Made by a program: the position numbers and the translations under genes
The notes under the pieces: generated by a model
Database searches by the model: none
What the model was told of the DNA's origin: nothing
The model's input: the letters and a program-made list of their open reading frames with translations, nothing else
In this document: positions 26,271 through 33,428 of the stretch, piece after piece
Numbering within the stretch: position 1 is the stretch's first letter
How the letters are laid out: the number at the start of each line of letters is the position of its first letter
Assembly (NCBI GenBank): GCA_009889515.1
Contig: WUQR01000139.1
Span: 372,001 to 436,000, forward strand
Direction: 5' to 3'
Length of the DNA stretch: 64,000 nucleotides
Source of the DNA: Nitrososphaerota archaeon
Lineage (GTDB): Archaea > Thermoproteota > Nitrososphaeria_A > Caldarchaeales > Calditenuaceae

Positions 26271-26819
26271 TCACCCGACATAGCTTGAGACTACTTTCTC
26301 GATTATTAGGAGTTCTAGGGCGTCTGCTGGGTCGGGTGCTGGGACTACTTCCAGCAGCTCTTTACTTATGTTGTAGATTTCCATTAGAGTCGCTGGGGAC
26401 GCTACTTGTCTGAAGGGCTCGATAGTTCCGCCTAGCTCCTCTACTATTTTGTAGAGTAGTGTCTCCGGGTCCGTGTCGCCTGTAGTTATTGCTGCTGCGA
26501 CTATCTTGTCCTCGCCGCCTCTGATGCCTGCGACTTTGAGGGCGTCTTGGATCTGTCTCTGGCATGATAGTCTTAGGAGGTATTCTACCTCGATACGCTT
26601 GGACCTTGCTGTCCCGGCTAAGGTGGTTGTGGCAGCGGCTGCGAATGCTGCGACTAGGTGGCGGGCTGACACAACTATCTCTGGCCTGCAGAACTGTATT
26701 CCCGACGAGCCGCTGAGACGCATTTCATCTAGGAGCTTCAGTGGATTCTTCTTTACGTTGGTTATCAGTGCTGCAGCAAACCTGTAGGGCCCGTAGCTGG
26801 ACCTAATTACAGCCGCCAT
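26271..26819 (-). CDS. cgi121: KEOPS complex subunit Cgi121
   Basis: 182-residue regulatory subunit of KEOPS, which makes the t6A modification on ANN-decoding tRNAs. Cgi121 binds the tRNA 3' CCA end and the Bud32 kinase. Seen: the alternating helical pattern with FCRPEIVVSARHLVAAF (about 43-59), SKRIEVEYLLRLSCQRQI and a GDTDPE loop, all in the right order and at normal length. Its ATG lies inside the last codons of the ubiquitin-like gene (17-base overlap), so it is translated by coupling. Other KEOPS genes are not in the window. Confidence 0.85.
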   Translation of the reverse strand: MAAVIRSSYGPYRFAAALITNVKKNPLKLLDEMRLSGSSGIQFCRPEIVVSARHLVAAFAAAATTTLAGTARSKRIEVEYLLRLSCQRQIQDALKVAGIRGGEDKIVAAAITTGDTDPETLLYKIVEELGGTIEPFRQVASPATLMEIYNISKELLEVVPAPDPADALELLIIEKVVSSYVG

Positions 26820-27075
26820 GGATCATCGGCACAATAGTGACCCTGTCATCATCCGATACCTCCACCTCATACCGGTAGACTGAGCGCGCATCCACGTCGT
26901 TTACGAGAATTAGGAACCCTGGTCTTATTTCCCCGCCCTCATCAAGGACTTGGCGCCTTACTGTCTCGGGTAGGAGTTTTAGAGCGGCTTTAAGCGGCTT
27001 CCTCTCACCTAGCCTGACTTCGATGAGCCGGTCCTTCACCTCTGTGCGGAGGTGTCCGTAGAGTTGGACGATCAA
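26803..27075 (-). CDS. Ubiquitin-like small modifier / sulfur carrier (MoaD-ThiS-Urm1 fold)
   Basis: 90-residue beta-grasp protein. It begins VQLYGHLRTEVKD, typical of archaeal MoaD/SAMP proteins, and ends VTIVPMIHGGCN. The diglycine is followed by two residues (Cys-Asn) instead of being terminal. The extra codons are those that also encode the start of Cgi121, so they may be a by-product of the overlap. If functional, the protein would need trimming before adenylation by an E1-like enzyme. The start is TTG 27075. Possible roles are tRNA thiolation, molybdopterin synthesis or protein conjugation; tRNA work fits its KEOPS partner. Confidence 0.78.
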   Translation of the reverse strand: MIVQLYGHLRTEVKDRLIEVRLGERKPLKAALKLLPETVRRQVLDEGGEIRPGFLILVNDVDARSVYRYEVEVSDDDRVTIVPMIHGGCN

Positions 27076-27197: not shown

Positions 27198-27704
27198 TCA
27201 GTTGGCAACAGTGGTATAGGTCCTATTCCTATATACTAGCGGCTTTGAATCCGGCATTCTTATAGCAACGCTTAAAACCTCACAGAGTATCAGGTCGTGG
27301 TCTCCAGCCTCGTAAATCCTATACCTCCTACAGATCATGTAGGCTGGAGTGTCGCGGAGGATTGGGACTTTCTCGGGCCCCTCCTCATAATCCACGCCCT
27401 CAAACTTATCGCGGGTCTTCTTCCTGCCGGCAAAAATCTCACTTAACTCTGCCTGCCCGCTTGAGAGGAGATGTATCGCGAATATTTCTGCCTCTCTGAA
27501 GGCTTTGTAGGAGTTTGCCGACCTGTCAACGGCTATCATGACGAGGGGTGGATTTAAGGAGACTGAGGTGAAGGAGCTGACAGTAATGCCGTATGCAAGT
27601 CCGCCTACCCTTGTGGTGACAACCGTCACGCCCTGAGGGTATAGCCTCATGAAGGCCTTTAGACCCTCCTGTCTCGCCGCAAGATCTCCCAGCCCAACAT
27701 CCAA
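27198..27704 (-). CDS. Flavin reductase-like FMN-binding protein
   Basis: 168 residues of the split-barrel flavin reductase family (DIM6/NTAB). GVTVVTTRVGGLAYGITVSSFTSVS (in two pieces, about 25-49) with SLNPPLVMIAVDR forms the FMN site, and a GDHDLILCEV strand follows. Such proteins reduce free flavin or act as flavin-dependent reductases. It follows the NAD-kinase-like gene after 7 bases, starting at TTG 27704, so the pair is an operon. That links it to pyridine-nucleotide handling. Specific substrate unknown. Confidence 0.85.
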   Translation of the reverse strand: MDVGLGDLAARQEGLKAFMRLYPQGVTVVTTRVGGLAYGITVSSFTSVSLNPPLVMIAVDRSANSYKAFREAEIFAIHLLSSGQAELSEIFAGRKKTRDKFEGVDYEEGPEKVPILRDTPAYMICRRYRIYEAGDHDLILCEVLSVAIRMPDSKPLVYRNRTYTTVAN

Positions 27705-27711
27705 TACCTAT

Positions 27712-28746
27712 TCACTCCGTTGTTTTCGGTTCTCCAATACGATTACTCTCGGGAATATAATATATCTTCTGTCTCGCATCTCTTGTGAGTGGTCTACGAG
27801 CGAGAAGCCTCTTCGAGACCAGTATGTTAAGTGCGTGGCGGAGGGTCCTCTCGGGTAGCATAGTCTTTTTGAGGAGCTGGGAATAGGTGAGAGGCCCTTC
27901 ATACTCTATTGTCTTTAGTATGAGTTTCGCTGACGGTGGCGTGTCTAACAGCTCCTCCGCCAGATGTATCTTCTTCTCAATCTTGCTGAATATGGGGGAA
28001 GGGCCGTTAAGCCTGATGAATTTGATGGGCGGCTCATAGGCCTTGATCGTGAGGCTCTCCTCGACAGGGACGCGGAGAAGCCCGTCAACTATGACCTCCG
28101 CCCCGCCCCGCGACGAGACGCTCTCCACAGATATGGCTGACTGGTCGCTGACGATTAGGGGTCTACGCGTCATGTCTATCGAGTTTACGGGTACAATAGC
28201 TAGGGCCTTGGCTGCATGGTGTATCAAGGGTCCTCCCGCTGAGAGTGAGTATCCGCTTGAGCCTAGGGGGGTGGAGACGATTAAGCCATCGGCCAAGTCG
28301 CGCCAGAGGAGCTCTCCATCCACATAAAGGCTATACTCCACAAGTGTAGCGCTTATCTGCGAGAAGAGTGCTGCCTCGTTTACGGCTATGGCAAGGTTTT
28401 GGTCGTCGATCGTCACTCTTAACGCGGTTAGACTCTCTGTCATGAACTGCCCCTTCTCAATCCTTTCCAAGGCGCTTGGGAGTTCGTCAAGCATCACCTG
28501 TGATAGGAATCCTCGCGTAGCCTCGCGGCTGACTGCTAAGACCCTCACCTCTCTATCGCTAACTGTGTGGAGAGTCTGAAGAATATCTCTATCGTCACCA
28601 ACGACTACAAGTACGTCACCTTTCTCGAGTCTGACATCGTCTAGAGATTCACAAACCTTAACACCCTGTAGCCTGTCCTTCAGAACTTCTTCCACCTCGC
28701 GCCTAACTCCGATGCTACGCCCAGAGACCTTAACTATGATCTCCAT
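27712..28746 (-). CDS. NAD-kinase-like protein with degenerate GGDGT motif and C-terminal winged helix
   Basis: 344 residues. Residues 1-255 follow the NAD kinase fold, with N123-E124 (AVNEAAL) and DGLIVSTPLGSSGYS at 153-167, and a SAGGP just after. The phosphate-binding GGDGT is replaced by V49-G-D-D-R53; one Gly and the Asp remain. Residues about 270-335 form a helix-turn-helix with a wing (YSQLLKKTMLPERTLRHAL, then a KRLLARRP wing strand), a fusion absent from ordinary NAD kinases. It could be a true kinase with an unusual site, or a nucleotide-responsive DNA-binding regulator. First gene of the operon with the flavin reductase. Fold sure, activity open. Confidence 0.8.
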   Translation of the reverse strand: MEIIVKVSGRSIGVRREVEEVLKDRLQGVKVCESLDDVRLEKGDVLVVVGDDRDILQTLHTVSDREVRVLAVSREATRGFLSQVMLDELPSALERIEKGQFMTESLTALRVTIDDQNLAIAVNEAALFSQISATLVEYSLYVDGELLWRDLADGLIVSTPLGSSGYSLSAGGPLIHHAAKALAIVPVNSIDMTRRPLIVSDQSAISVESVSSRGGAEVIVDGLLRVPVEESLTIKAYEPPIKFIRLNGPSPIFSKIEKKIHLAEELLDTPPSAKLILKTIEYEGPLTYSQLLKKTMLPERTLRHALNILVSKRLLARRPLTRDARQKIYYIPESNRIGEPKTTE

Positions 28747-28847
28747 GTCGTCCTGACATTATATTCTTAGGGAGGCTTATCAATTTTGGGCATTCCGGCA
28801 ATATTACAGCTGAGCGATGTTTTGAATCATTTTTTGCCAGTTTCGTT

Positions 28848-28859
28848 AGCTATAAAACG
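28848..28859 (+). promoter_or_regulatory. TATA box of the second HAAT operon
   Basis: GCTATAAAAC, centred 30 bases before ATG 28886. It implies a very short leader or none and lies in the 139-base region divergent with the NAD-kinase-like gene. Confidence 0.55.
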
Positions 28860-28885: not shown

Positions 28886-30202
28886 ATGGATCGACGGCGG
28901 GCTCTCTCAAGTCTATTAAAGACCGGTATTATCGCCGCTGGTGCGGCAGGTCTAGGGGCTGTTGCCGGATACTTGTCAGGCAGCTCAATCGGAGCGCAGC
29001 CTCCACAGGGACGCGAACCAGGTGTGAAACCCATCAAGATCGGGTTCCAAGTACACAGAACTGGGATCGGGGCACCATACGGTTTCTGGTATGAGAGGGT
29101 GGCCAACGCCGCTGTCTCCTACATAAACAAGATCGGCGGGATAGCTGGGCGGCCGGTTGAACTCATAGCTGAGGATGACGAGACAAGTCCCGCCAAGGGT
29201 GCGCAGGTCGTCGAGAGGCTTGTGCTAGCCCACAATGTAGACTTCATCCTCGGGGCCCTCTTCTCGGACGTGGTGCTTGCATCCGGCCCTAGGGCTGGCG
29301 AGCTTAAGAGACCCTACTTCGCAGTCAGTGAGGGAACCCATGTACCTTTCGGCAAGCTGAATAGGTGGTGCTTCCAGCCAGGAATAACAGATGTCCCTGG
29401 CCAAGTGACTGCCGTGGCTAAGTGGATCTTCGAGAACCTGGGGAAGAGGGTCGCGATGATCTACCCTGACTATGCGTTTGGGCATGATCATAGGGATGCC
29501 CTCACCAAGGCGGCGGAGAGGTATGGTGCGAGGATTGTTGAGAAGATTCCCATCCCGCCGGGTGAGACCAGCTTTACGAAATACTTCACCCGGATTCCGA
29601 GAGATATTGATGTGCTTTACCATGTGATGGTTGGCGACGTGCTTACTTTTATCAGGGAGCTTGGGGTCTATCTTGGGCGTGATAGGCCTGAGTTGTTCGG
29701 ATTTATAGACAGCATTGAGGCTGTTCCACTCTCCGCTCCAGGGTTGGAGTATCTTGAGGGGACTTATTTCTGGGAGGCTTTTCCAAGGTATGCTGACGGC
29801 TACGACACCCCCTATGCAAGGTTCTATAGGGAGTCGGTTGGTGTTGACGAAAGTGGCGCCGACAAGTCAGATCCTTCTCGAGTCTCCGCATTTAGCCACA
29901 TGTTTGGGGTCTGGGAGACCCTCTTCGTAATTAAGGAGGCTGTGGAGCAGAGCGGCTACAGCGAGCCGACTCGCAGCGACTATGAGGCCTTTATCAAGAC
30001 GCTCGAGTCTATGGATTGGTTCAATGAGGGTCTGTGGCACCCACAAGGAGACAAGCGTTTCAACGGCAAACTACACCAGTCATTTGGGCATCAGTTCATA
30101 TCGGTTGTGAGAAATGGCAGACTAGTGGTTGTCCACAGGACTGAGATAGAAGATTCATTCTACGAGCATCCGAACGATTATACTAAGCAGCCGTTGTTCT
30201 AG
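28886..30202 (+). CDS. HAAT-type ABC substrate-binding protein
   Basis: 438-residue Peripla_BP_6 protein, first gene of a complete transporter operon. The N-terminus MDRRRALSSLLKTG plus a Gly/Ala-rich hydrophobic stretch resembles a twin-arginine signal, so export may be by Tat. The mature domain starts at IKIGFQVHRTG. Typical strands include VELIAEDDETSPAKG and VDFILGALFSD. It is not closely similar to the two binding proteins at 4-10 kb. Permease LivH follows 2 bases on. The ligand could be an amino acid, amide or urea-like compound; no assignment possible. Confidence 0.88.
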   Translation: MDRRRALSSLLKTGIIAAGAAGLGAVAGYLSGSSIGAQPPQGREPGVKPIKIGFQVHRTGIGAPYGFWYERVANAAVSYINKIGGIAGRPVELIAEDDETSPAKGAQVVERLVLAHNVDFILGALFSDVVLASGPRAGELKRPYFAVSEGTHVPFGKLNRWCFQPGITDVPGQVTAVAKWIFENLGKRVAMIYPDYAFGHDHRDALTKAAERYGARIVEKIPIPPGETSFTKYFTRIPRDIDVLYHVMVGDVLTFIRELGVYLGRDRPELFGFIDSIEAVPLSAPGLEYLEGTYFWEAFPRYADGYDTPYARFYRESVGVDESGADKSDPSRVSAFSHMFGVWETLFVIKEAVEQSGYSEPTRSDYEAFIKTLESMDWFNEGLWHPQGDKRFNGKLHQSFGHQFISVVRNGRLVVVHRTEIEDSFYEHPNDYTKQPLF

Positions 30203-30204
30203 AA

Positions 30205-31074
30205 TTGCTCCCTCTAGAGCATCTGGGGCTGGCGGTAGTTGATGGCCTAGTCAACGGCTCAGTTATGGCGTTCATAGCCCTCGGACTTGCTATCGTCTTC
30301 GGTATAATGAATGTCGTGAATCTGACCCATGGCGAGCTATACATGCTCGGTGCGATGATAAGCTGGCTCATGGTACAGGCTGCTCTCCCATATGCCTCTG
30401 CTTTGGTCGCGGCCCCCCTTCTTGTCGGGGGGCTGGCCGTTGCTATAAACATGTTCATTCTCCAGAGGTTTGGGCATGAGCCCGGCCAAACGGTTCTCGC
30501 AACCTTTGGACTCCTCCTCATCCTTCAGCAACTGGGCTTAGCCATACTGGGGCCTGCTCCGCGCTCGATCTCACCCCCCTTTAACCCCATCATAGAGTTT
30601 TCTGGCTTCAGCTACTCGGGCTTCAAGCTCTTCGCAGGCCTATTCTCGCTTATGGCCTGTCTCCTCGTCTGGCTTGGTGTTGAGCGGAGTAGGATTGGCC
30701 CCCTTCTGCGGGCTGCTCAGGAGAACAGGCTGATGGCAGAGTCTCTAGGCATAGACACTAGCAAGGTGTTTTTGATTGGCTTCGCCCTGGCCGGCTCATT
30801 AGTGGGGTTTGCCGGTGCTCTAACCTCACCCTTCAGGCAGATACACTTCCTCATGGGGTTTGACGCCCTTGCCGTGTCGTTTGTTGTTGTGGTTTTGGGG
30901 GGTGTGGGTAGGATTGGCGGGACTATTGCGGCAGGTGTTGGGCTGGGCCTGCTAGAGAGTCTCGCTGCCCTCTTCCTCGCGCCTACAGTGGCAAGGGTCC
31001 TTACACTGACTCTGGCCCTGATATACGTCGTAGCTAGGAGGCTCGGCTCGATTAGGGGGGTGTGGAGGTATTGA
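30205..31074 (+). CDS. livH: HAAT permease, LivH type
   Basis: 289 residues, about eight membrane helices. The signature NVVNLTHGELYMLGA falls near 37-50, a LRAAQENRLMAESLGI coupling helix near 170-185, and VVVVLGGVGRIGG near 228-240. The start is TTG 30205, 2 bases after the binding protein's stop. Its 3' end overlaps LivM. Forms the membrane channel with LivM. Confidence 0.92.
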   Translation: MLPLEHLGLAVVDGLVNGSVMAFIALGLAIVFGIMNVVNLTHGELYMLGAMISWLMVQAALPYASALVAAPLLVGGLAVAINMFILQRFGHEPGQTVLATFGLLLILQQLGLAILGPAPRSISPPFNPIIEFSGFSYSGFKLFAGLFSLMACLLVWLGVERSRIGPLLRAAQENRLMAESLGIDTSKVFLIGFALAGSLVGFAGALTSPFRQIHFLMGFDALAVSFVVVVLGGVGRIGGTIAAGVGLGLLESLAALFLAPTVARVLTLTLALIYVVARRLGSIRGVWRY

Positions 31075-32021
31075 GGCCGCGGCCCACAATTATAGCATCG
31101 CTCACAATCCCGATAATCCTAGCAGTAGCCTACCCATTCCTTCCAGAGTATCAAAAAGCCTTGGTAGCCCGAATCATGATACTGTCCATCTACTCCTACG
31201 GCTATGCCGTGTGTTTCCAGATGGTTGGCATCATGAGTCTGGGGCATGCGGCTCTATTCGCAGCCGGCATGTACGGCGCTGGCCTCTACGCCTACTACAT
31301 CTCGCCAGACCCCTTCGTGGCACTGGCTGTTGGTGTCGCATCCTCGGTGCTCCTCTCCATGCTTTTGGGCGTACTCGCTATGCGTGTCGGCGGAGCCTAC
31401 CTGATGATAGGGACCCTTCTCGCGTCACAGGCGCTCTACCTAGTCGCACTGCACTTTAACGAGATAACTGGGGGTGAGCAGGGGCTGGTCCTGAGAGGCG
31501 AGGCCACCATCACAGGAGCCCTCAAACCCTTACTCTCCGAGCTGGACGCCCGCTACATGGTCTCACTAATTGCACTAACTGTCGTGGTAGCAGGTATAAC
31601 CATCCTCTCCTCCTCACGCCTGGGCCGCATGTTGCTGGCTGTTAGAGATGACGAGGAGAAGCTGGAGAGCCTCGGCTACAACACCTCCATCCTCAAACTC
31701 CTAGCCTTCTCGATCTCTGGCGCCCTATCCGGTGCCTCAGGCTCCCTCCTAGCACTCCTATACAGCTATGTCGGGGCTGGATATGCTGGAGTCCTCAACT
31801 CCGTGGAGCCTGTCCTATGGGTGCTCGTGGGCGGCCCCTACGTGGAGTTCGGGCCTTTTCTCGGAAGCCTCTTGGTGAACCTGTTGGCGGACACTGCGCG
31901 AGGCCTCCTGAGGGGGCATGTGCTGGTTGTTGGGGCCGGGCTTGTAGCCTTCGCCCTCGCGACAGGGAGGCTGCGGTGGGCCTACCAAATACTGGGAAGG
32001 TGGAGGAGCCGTGCAGCCTAG
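31062..32021 (+). CDS. livM: HAAT permease, LivM type
   Basis: 319-residue permease. MVGIMSLGHAALFAAGMY near 51-68, GAYLMIGTLLASQ near 109-121 and the coupling stretch LAVRDDEEKLESLGYN near 192-207 identify it. GTG 31062 overlaps LivH by 13 bases. A TTG at 31071, with GGAGGT just ahead but very close, is an alternative. Normal length. Confidence 0.92.
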   Translation: MEVLRPRPTIIASLTIPIILAVAYPFLPEYQKALVARIMILSIYSYGYAVCFQMVGIMSLGHAALFAAGMYGAGLYAYYISPDPFVALAVGVASSVLLSMLLGVLAMRVGGAYLMIGTLLASQALYLVALHFNEITGGEQGLVLRGEATITGALKPLLSELDARYMVSLIALTVVVAGITILSSSRLGRMLLAVRDDEEKLESLGYNTSILKLLAFSISGALSGASGSLLALLYSYVGAGYAGVLNSVEPVLWVLVGGPYVEFGPFLGSLLVNLLADTARGLLRGHVLVVGAGLVAFALATGRLRWAYQILGRWRSRAA

Positions 32022-32727
32022 ACCCCTACTCTCACTCCAAGATATCTCAAAGTCCTTTGACGGTGTCCAGGCCCTGGCGGGGGTCTCCCTCGAGGTAGGT
32101 GATACAGGGATCCTCGGAATAATAGGTCCAAACGGTGCGGGCAAATCCACCTTAGCCGGTGTCATTGTAGGCTCCCTCAAGCCCGACAGCGGCAGAATAT
32201 TCTTCCTAGGCAGAGAGATTACCGGTCTCCCCGTGAGGAAAAGAGCCCGCCTAGGAATAGCCAACACCCACCAAATACCGCGGTCCTTCCCCTCGCTCAC
32301 AGTCTACGAGAACCTCGAACTAGCCGCCCTCCACACCTCCGGCAAGGACGTTAGGCAGCGGATAATCGAAACGGCGGACTTACTAGGCCTCCAACCAGTA
32401 TTGGAACTTAAAGCCTCCCAACTCTCTCACGGCCAAATAAGGCTATTAGAGATAAGCATGGCCCTCATCTCGCGGCCGCGGTTGCTGGTGATGGATGAGC
32501 CTACCCAAGGCCTAACCGGTCTAGAGGTGCACACCCTCGTAGAGATCCTTAGAGGCTTGGCGGAGAGGCTGGCGATAATCATCATCGACCATAGAGTCGA
32601 TTTCGTGGTCTCGCTCTCATCGAGGATCGCTATCATGAGTCGTGGAAGGATTGTGGCGCTTGGCAACGCAAGGGACAGTTGGGTTACTGAGAAGATTGAA
32701 GAGGTGTATCTGAGAGGGGGGTCCTGA
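32011..32727 (+). CDS. livG: HAAT ATPase, LivG type
   Basis: 238 residues. Walker A GPNGAGKST, LivG-type IANTHQIPRSFP, signature LSHGQIRLLE, Walker B LLVMDEPTQGL, then IIDHRVDFV with the switch His. The gene starts inside the end of LivM (11-base overlap), and its stop overlaps the ATG of LivF by one base (TGATG). Energises the transporter. Confidence 0.93.
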   Translation: MQPRPLLSLQDISKSFDGVQALAGVSLEVGDTGILGIIGPNGAGKSTLAGVIVGSLKPDSGRIFFLGREITGLPVRKRARLGIANTHQIPRSFPSLTVYENLELAALHTSGKDVRQRIIETADLLGLQPVLELKASQLSHGQIRLLEISMALISRPRLLVMDEPTQGLTGLEVHTLVEILRGLAERLAIIIIDHRVDFVVSLSSRIAIMSRGRIVALGNARDSWVTEKIEEVYLRGGS

Positions 32728-33428
32728 TGCTGGAGATAAGTGGACTGGTGTCAGGATACTACGGGCTCAAGATTGTGAGAGGCATCTCCCTCAAGGTAGA
32801 GAAGGGTGAGGTGCTGTTTGTTATGGGTAGAAACGGGGTTGGTAAGACGACACTGCTGAAGACGGTCGTAGGACACATAAGACCTATGAGCGGAAGGGTA
32901 GTGATAGACGGCCATGATGTCACGGGCTGGAGCCCCCACGCGATAGCGCGGATGGGTGTGGGATATGTCCCCCAAGACAGGGGGGTATTCGCTAGGCTGA
33001 CCGTCGAGGAGAATCTCCGGATAGCGGAGGGATTAAACGGAGAGATCTTGAAAGAGGCCTTCAAGCTATTCCCCGAGCTAGAGCCCCTCAGAGATAGGAA
33101 GGGAGGCAAGCTCAGCGGTGGTGAACAGCAGATACTTGCGGTAGCGCGAGCCATAGCCTCCAGGCCAAAGCTCTTGGTGATGGATGAGCCTGCCACAGGG
33201 CTTGCTCCACCTATAATCCGGCGGATGGTAGAGGCTGTTAAGCAACTCACCAGTCAGGGCGCGTCAGCCATAATTGCAGAACAGAATCCGGCCCTAGTCT
33301 TCGAGCTAGCAGACAAGCTAGCACTTATGGAGGCGGGAGAGATAAAAGCGATCATTGGGCGTGACCGCTTGGCGGAGAGCCAGCAACTCCTCCGAAGCGC
33401 GCTAGGCCTATCCTATCAGGACAGATAA
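32727..33428 (+). CDS. livF: HAAT ATPase, LivF type
   Basis: 233 residues, last gene of the operon. Walker A GRNGVGKTT, GYVPQDRGVFARLTVEENL, signature LSGGEQQ and Walker B LLVMDEPATGLAP, then IIAEQNPALV. Complete and normal. It converges on the Gfo/Idh gene 13 bases away. Confidence 0.93.
   Translation: MLEISGLVSGYYGLKIVRGISLKVEKGEVLFVMGRNGVGKTTLLKTVVGHIRPMSGRVVIDGHDVTGWSPHAIARMGVGYVPQDRGVFARLTVEENLRIAEGLNGEILKEAFKLFPELEPLRDRKGGKLSGGEQQILAVARAIASRPKLLVMDEPATGLAPPIIRRMVEAVKQLTSQGASAIIAEQNPALVFELADKLALMEAGEIKAIIGRDRLAESQQLLRSALGLSYQDR

Follow-up and report, generated by a model that had tools for sequence, protein, structure and literature searches.

A putative NAD(P)-sensing regulator derived from a NAD-kinase paralogue in an archaeal phylum

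The locus and the architecture of the fusion protein

The stretch of archaeal DNA that we analysed (the window, 64,000 nucleotides) contains a gene for a NAD-kinase homologue extended by a C-terminal winged helix, which we call the fusion. A flavin reductase-like gene follows it on the same strand, and an operon for an ABC importer diverges from it (Table 1). Next after the flavin reductase come Urm1/ThiS-like and Cgi121 (KEOPS subunit) genes (26271-27075), which accompany the fusion in the window's genus and at the locus L056.

Table 1. Features of the fusion locus, with positions in the window
Feature	Position	Strand	Basis or remark
Flavin reductase-like gene, 7 bp downstream of the fusion	27198..27704	-	PF01613, E 1.7e-42
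NAD-kinase paralogue with winged helix (fusion), proposed NAD(P)-sensing regulator	27712..28746	-	344 aa, ATG start
Winged-helix domain, about residues 268-332 of the fusion	27751..27945	-	sub-threshold profiles and models
NAD-kinase-like domain, about residues 16-260 of the fusion	27967..28701	-	profile and structure matches
Degenerate GGDGT, G50 D51 D52 R53 D54, catalytic Asp kept	28585..28599	-	alignment
Putative degenerate operator TGGCAAAAAATGA	28827..28839	-	GGCAAAAAATGA unchanged in 5 genomes of the genus
TATA-like box, ABC operon, 10 bp past the putative operator	28850..28857	+	by eye
ABC substrate-binding protein (Peripla_BP_6), proposed target gene	28886..30202	+	profile match
ABC permease 1 of the divergent operon	30205..31074	+	by sequence and position
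ABC permease 2	31062..32021	+	by sequence and position
ABC ATPase 1	32011..32727	+	by sequence and position
ABC ATPase 2	32727..33428	+	by sequence and position

In a Pfam scan the fusion matches NAD_kinase_C at residues 123-233 (E 1.1e-23, 83.7 bits against a cut-off of 23.7) and, more weakly, the N-terminal NAD_kinase domain (E 5.4e-6, 27.2 bits, which passes the cut-off of 25.5). All NCBIfam NAD-kinase models stay below their cut-offs, the best with 140 bits against 326, and the sequence matches in the PDB are NAD kinases. The MarR matches at residues 268-326 are sub-threshold (17.7 bits against 24.6), and the predicted secondary structure supports a winged helix at the C-terminus. The sensor domains of NadR, NrtR and NiaR are absent from the fusion according to Pfam and NCBIfam, which return NAD-kinase domains, a weak helix-turn-helix (HTH) and otherwise sub-threshold matches.

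The full-length AlphaFold model is poor (pLDDT 57, pTM 0.47, from a 6-row alignment), and despite this pLDDT it superimposes on NAD kinases with Z 12.5 over 218 residues (rmsd 4.6). In the same poor model, residues 249-337 match solved ArsR/MarR-type regulators with Z up to 10.9. Modelled in isolation, the winged helix reaches a moderate pLDDT of 72; its matches to winged-helix regulators have Z of at most 7.2, values that may reflect only a common arrangement. The best structural matches of the C-terminus are MarR/ArsR/Lrp-type DNA-binding domains, and structure prediction, suggested earlier as a check on this part of the protein, would point to a DNA-binding type of fold, within the quality of poor to moderate models. 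The original prediction of a NAD-kinase homologue joined to a winged helix is supported by Pfam, secondary structure and structural matches.

In NAD kinases the catalytic Asp, the Asn of NE/ND, the DG motif and GSxxY are motifs of the NAD site, and GGDG(T/N/S/M) is the phosphate-donor motif. The GGDGT of the window protein is broken, as had been claimed; its reading as VGDDR, however, was one residue out of register, the aligned motif being GDDRD. Compared with canonical kinases the fusion keeps the catalytic Asp (D52), and Gly2, Gly4 and Thr5 are changed. A loss of the catalytic Asp was considered and rejected, since the alignment register places D52 at the catalytic position. The NE and the DG...GSxGYS block were rightly said to be kept: NE and DGLIVSTPLGSSGYS are both present.

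The same holds for the family. We aligned 40 of the 49 fusions (the near-copies L034, L037, L038 and L039 and five genomes of the phylum-wide set were omitted) and 35 separate NAD kinases (omitting 9 near-copies of the window's order and others). GGDG is intact in none of the 40 fusions and in 33 of the 35 separate kinases; for comparison, archaeal NAD kinases have GGDGT in 124 of 127 cases, according to an excerpt of the review PMC8553519. The replacements in the fusions are varied (for example GGDRG, GDDRD, GTDSD, GGDKG and GRDRD). On the other hand, the catalytic Asp, the Asn of NE/ND, the DG motif and the Tyr of GSxxY are each found in all 40, together with residues such as D150, N188 and R225 that are common to the fusions and have no counterpart in the separate kinases. 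Our reading of the alignment is that selection would act on the pyridine-nucleotide site of the fusion and not on its phosphate-donor site.

Two variants were seen elsewhere. In L040 and L041 (genomes G021 and G020, family f3 of the window's order) the NAD-kinase match, the only one found in either genome with the window protein as query, reads GGNGL, which puts an Asn at the position of the catalytic Asp. In the separate NAD kinases L175, L176, L177, L179, L183 and L184 (f7, f40 and f44) the usual GSTAY is GSTGH, i.e. the Tyr of the NAD site is a His.

Spread, descent and gene neighbourhoods

A search for a second, canonical NAD kinase in the genome, proposed with the original prediction, found one with an LGGDGT motif (C139:884961-885632). 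In the window's order, the fusion occurs in 15 of 44 genomes and a separate kinase in all 15 of these. The winged helix has a match in 177 of the 397 genomes of a phylum-wide search; from this search 40 genomes were chosen, and the fusion is present in 34, with a separate kinase in every one of these except G233. Altogether, we confirmed the fusion in 49 genomes of the phylum, 48 of which have a separate NAD kinase. Its relatives include proteins of Candidatus Calditenuaceae (order Caldarchaeales), and among the families that carry it are some which we take, from their gene content, to be probable ammonia oxidisers and others that are presumably Sulfolobales-like. The idea that the architecture is a novelty private to the window's genome is therefore rejected, as it is conserved across the phylum.

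A tree of 75 kinase domains has a branch with 100/100 support that divides the 40 fusions from the separate NAD kinases. Because of this branch and of the presence throughout the phylum beside a separate kinase, the fusion is an old paralogue, most simply of a single origin, and not a recent accident. Stand-alone relatives of its winged helix (79-99 aa) exist in f20 and f36 (L163-L167); four of the five are in genomes where no fusion was found, and L166 comes from G251, which has one.

To describe the neighbourhoods we clustered the genes around 44 fusion loci. In families f10, f28, f55 and f6 the fusion lies head-to-head with a gene of cluster c27, and genes of c43 and c44 usually come next. 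Cluster c27 is NadA, quinolinate synthase (PF02445, E 2e-104), and c43 and c44 are NadC and NadX, so that these loci hold the de novo NAD pathway. When the positions of NadA, found in 61 of 80 genomes, were joined with those of the fusion, 15 of the 61 had the two genes head-to-head: 5 of 5 in f10, 8 of 8 in f28 (counting genomes with NadA), and 1 of 1 each in f6 and f55.

At other loci the gene that diverges from the fusion often encodes a transporter. In f20 it is an amino-acid-permease-like gene and in f49 an SSF symporter. In f43 (L134) and in a Calditenuaceae genus (L056) it is an MFS gene (c33) that resembles aromatic-acid/SV2-like carriers, judged by a scan of the L134 copy; the nicotinate carriers NiaP probably belong to this carrier class. 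In the window's family an ABC importer adjoins the fusion at 7 of 9 loci; in one genus the two diverge, and in another they are read in the same direction. Furthermore, what we take by sequence to be a CTP synthase-like gene is found beside or near the fusion in L137-L141 and L144 (f7 and f44) and in L133 (f40); all of these except L133 also have a PfkB-family kinase nearby, which may phosphorylate a nucleoside or a NAD precursor.

The flavin reductase is a different case. The original prediction that it follows the fusion holds, with a gap of 7 bp and a clear PF01613 match, and this co-location is confined to the window's genus (6 loci, cluster c12). In the sister genome G010 only scars are left of the fusion and the ABC operon, and the flavin reductase, the ThiS/Urm1-like gene and the Cgi121-like gene are intact. 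In this comparison (L066 and L033) the flanking genes are 82-98% identical, with one near each end at 68-71%, and the joint loss of the fusion and the ABC operon may have been one deletion. That the flavin reductase has survived the loss of the fusion argues against it as the regulated partner, and its position is probably incidental. We have therefore rejected the control of redox genes, which had been part of the original prediction: the conserved partners of the fusion are nadA-nadC-nadX and transporters.

A dyad upstream of nadA and of fusion genes

We counted 5-mer dyads upstream of 34 fusion genes with no preset motif. GGCAA-N3-TTGCC came out on top with 7 loci, where 60 dinucleotide shuffles gave at most 6 loci, with AT-rich words among those shown. 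Its longer form, TGGCAA-N3-TTGCCA, lies between the fusion and nadA in several of the head-to-head loci. Among 35 dereplicated fusion promoters the dyad is exact in 1 and within one mismatch in 7 (shuffle means 0.03 and 0.32). Note that the fusion promoters of f7, f40, f44, f41, f51, f23 and g13 have no good dyad.

The dyad is also present upstream of nadA genes whose genome has the fusion at another place. In 26 such loci (f7, f40, f44 and f64) the dyad is exact upstream of nadA in 11 and within one mismatch in 22, compared with means of 0 and 0.17 (maxima 0 and 2) when the same loci were shuffled and with 0 and 1 in 360 control genes. These nadA-upstream statistics cover 30 of 61 matched loci, and the choice of start is doubtful in L197 and L216. 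A further 20 nadA-upstream regions of about 900-1500 bp have the dyad within one mismatch in 8 cases, which is less telling because the regions are longer. In a whole-genome scan of 58 genomes, the exact 15-mer TGGCAANNNTTGCCA has 19 sites in 14 genomes, against 4 sites for a reversed-pattern control; 7 of the 19 fall in the gap between nadX and nadA, a short way upstream of the latter, and the nine other sites for which loci were returned are all inside ORFs.

Other families are less uniform. In f23, where the fusion is away from nadA, the site upstream of nadA is exact in G086 and has one mismatch in G113, G163 and G316; the remaining nadA genes of this family have a weaker dyad or none. Taken together, the nadA loci of f12, f28 and f23 are mixed, with the dyad at some and not at all of them. 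Three f20 genomes that have nadA and lack the fusion have no dyad within 2 mismatches. G035, which has the only full nadA gene in the window's order, has no dyad there, though it does have the fusion. What would tie the dyad to the fusion is its occurrence at the fusion's own promoters, the head-to-head arrangement and the small negative control from f20.

The distance to the promoter is rather constant. In 23 of the 26 nadA loci of f7, f40, f44 and f64 the gap between the dyad and a TATA-like box is 41-43 bp, measured with TATA strings that were picked after viewing the sequences. At most nadA loci of f40 and several of f44 there is also a weaker site, closer by 30-31 bp. In the families with divergent nadA and in the window, the site is roughly 10-15 bp from the box, judged by eye. 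A constant phase ahead of the TATA box would be consistent with an activator; a site adjacent to the box would fit either sign of regulation.

The putative operator in the window differs from GGCAANNNTTGCC by 3 mismatches and has one half-site only. It has no other match with up to one mismatch in the 2.1-Mb genome. Its function as an operator is less certain than that of the site at nadA because it is degenerate, and the block in which it lies may be conserved as a promoter.

Proposed mechanism, alternatives and known systems

Good support for the original prediction, in which an enzyme has become a nucleotide-sensing transcription factor, comes from the missing GGDG in all 40 aligned fusions, the separate kinase in 48 of 49 genomes, the DNA-binding type of the C-terminus and the operator at nadA. 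We consider it likely that the fusion is a NAD(P)-sensing transcription factor which arose from a NAD-kinase paralogue and controls NAD synthesis or the uptake of its precursors, as a role of the family as a whole; we are less confident about the exact target in the window. The kinase domain, with its NAD(P)-binding residues kept, would bind pyridine nucleotide with poor or no turnover because the glycine-rich phosphate-donor loop has been lost. The C-terminal winged helix would bind the palindrome TGGCAA-N3-TTGCCA, and NAD(P) occupancy would alter this binding and so set the expression of the NAD supply. The targets would be nadA-nadC-nadX in lineages with de novo synthesis and precursor importers in lineages without it; in the window's genus the fusion would regulate its own gene as well as the divergent ABC importer. 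We infer four elements of this scheme: the binding of the operator by the fusion, NAD(P) as the ligand, the sign of regulation and the substrate of the ABC importer. More tentatively, the NAD kinase, halted short of phosphate transfer because its donor loop is lost, might be the NAD(P) gauge of a family of transcription factors found across the phylum; in the ammonia-oxidiser-like families its site would be in phase with the nadA TATA box, some four helical turns further upstream, and the protein would be an activator or a dual-mode switch and not a simple repressor. We hold this suggestion with a good deal of doubt.

For the window itself, it could be that the regulator is real and has been re-targeted in this genus to a transporter unrelated to NAD, for example one for amino acids or urea. 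The substrate-binding protein does resemble binding proteins of the amino-acid/urea type, and the degenerate operator would fit. However, NadA was found in 2 of the 44 genomes of the window's order, one of these being a fragment of 45 aa on a small contig of G000, and NAPRTase in none of the 44; the order therefore probably imports some other NAD precursor. In addition, the transporter has stayed beside the fusion at most loci of the family (7 of 9) despite rearrangement. We consider re-targeting unlikely. In the window's genus the obvious candidate for the import of a NAD precursor is the divergent ABC importer.

The fusion could also be both enzyme and regulator, that is, it could still phosphorylate NAD, perhaps with another donor, and bind DNA as well, as RbkR does for riboflavin. 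Since the catalytic Asp is retained, as are the NAD-site motifs in all 40 fusions, residual enzymatic activity is possible, and the archaeal precedent of a kinase with an HTH is noted as both gene regulator and enzyme in the part of PMC8305020 available. Against this stand the loop, broken in every aligned fusion with variable replacements, and the separate kinase in all fusion genomes except one, which make a bifunctional protein rather improbable. A divergent NAD kinase with a C-terminal domain for dimerisation or another role away from DNA, the operator at nadA belonging to another regulator, would explain why some fusion promoters have no operator and why some genomes carry stand-alone winged helices, but it is very improbable given that the dyad of the fusion promoters recurs at nadA in separate families, that the two genes lie head-to-head in four families and that the winged helix matches DNA-binding regulators.

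If the fusion is indeed a NAD(P)-sensing regulator, how does it compare with known systems? With NAD kinase itself (NadK/PpnK; PF01513 and PF20143) it shares the fold and the NAD-site motifs; it differs in the missing GGDG loop, the extra winged helix, the separate clade and its co-residence with a canonical kinase. In design, the closest known system would be the archaeal RbkR, in which a riboflavin kinase domain is likewise joined to an HTH and which regulates the pathway of its own coenzyme, as described in an extract of PMC8305020, whereas its coenzyme and kinase family are different and its HTH is N-terminal. According to the portion of PMC6800001 available, the NAD regulators NadR, NiaR and NrtR are bacterial. 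From the same portion, the NadR of enterobacteria is similarly a NAD-liganded regulator with enzyme domains, but these are adenylyltransferase and ribosylnicotinamide kinase domains and its repressor domain is N-terminal. NrtR (Nudix-related) and NiaR regulate NAD synthesis and uptake, and NrtR can lie opposite a nadABC operon much as the fusion lies opposite nadA; their sensors are Nudix-like or nicotinate-responsive (PMC6800001, same portion), whereas that of the fusion would be a NAD kinase. Judged by sequence comparison, the fusion would be an enzyme-derived regulator of the supply of its own coenzyme, working like NadR, NrtR and NiaR with another sensor domain. We were not able to find a prior description of a NAD-kinase-HTH or NAD-kinase-derived regulator in the open-access library that was searched.

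If this is true, a large archaeal phylum gains a candidate NAD regulator together with its operator and target genes, and a core metabolic enzyme would have become a sensor through the loss of one loop. The "NAD kinases" of about 340 aa in these genomes are then probably misannotated.
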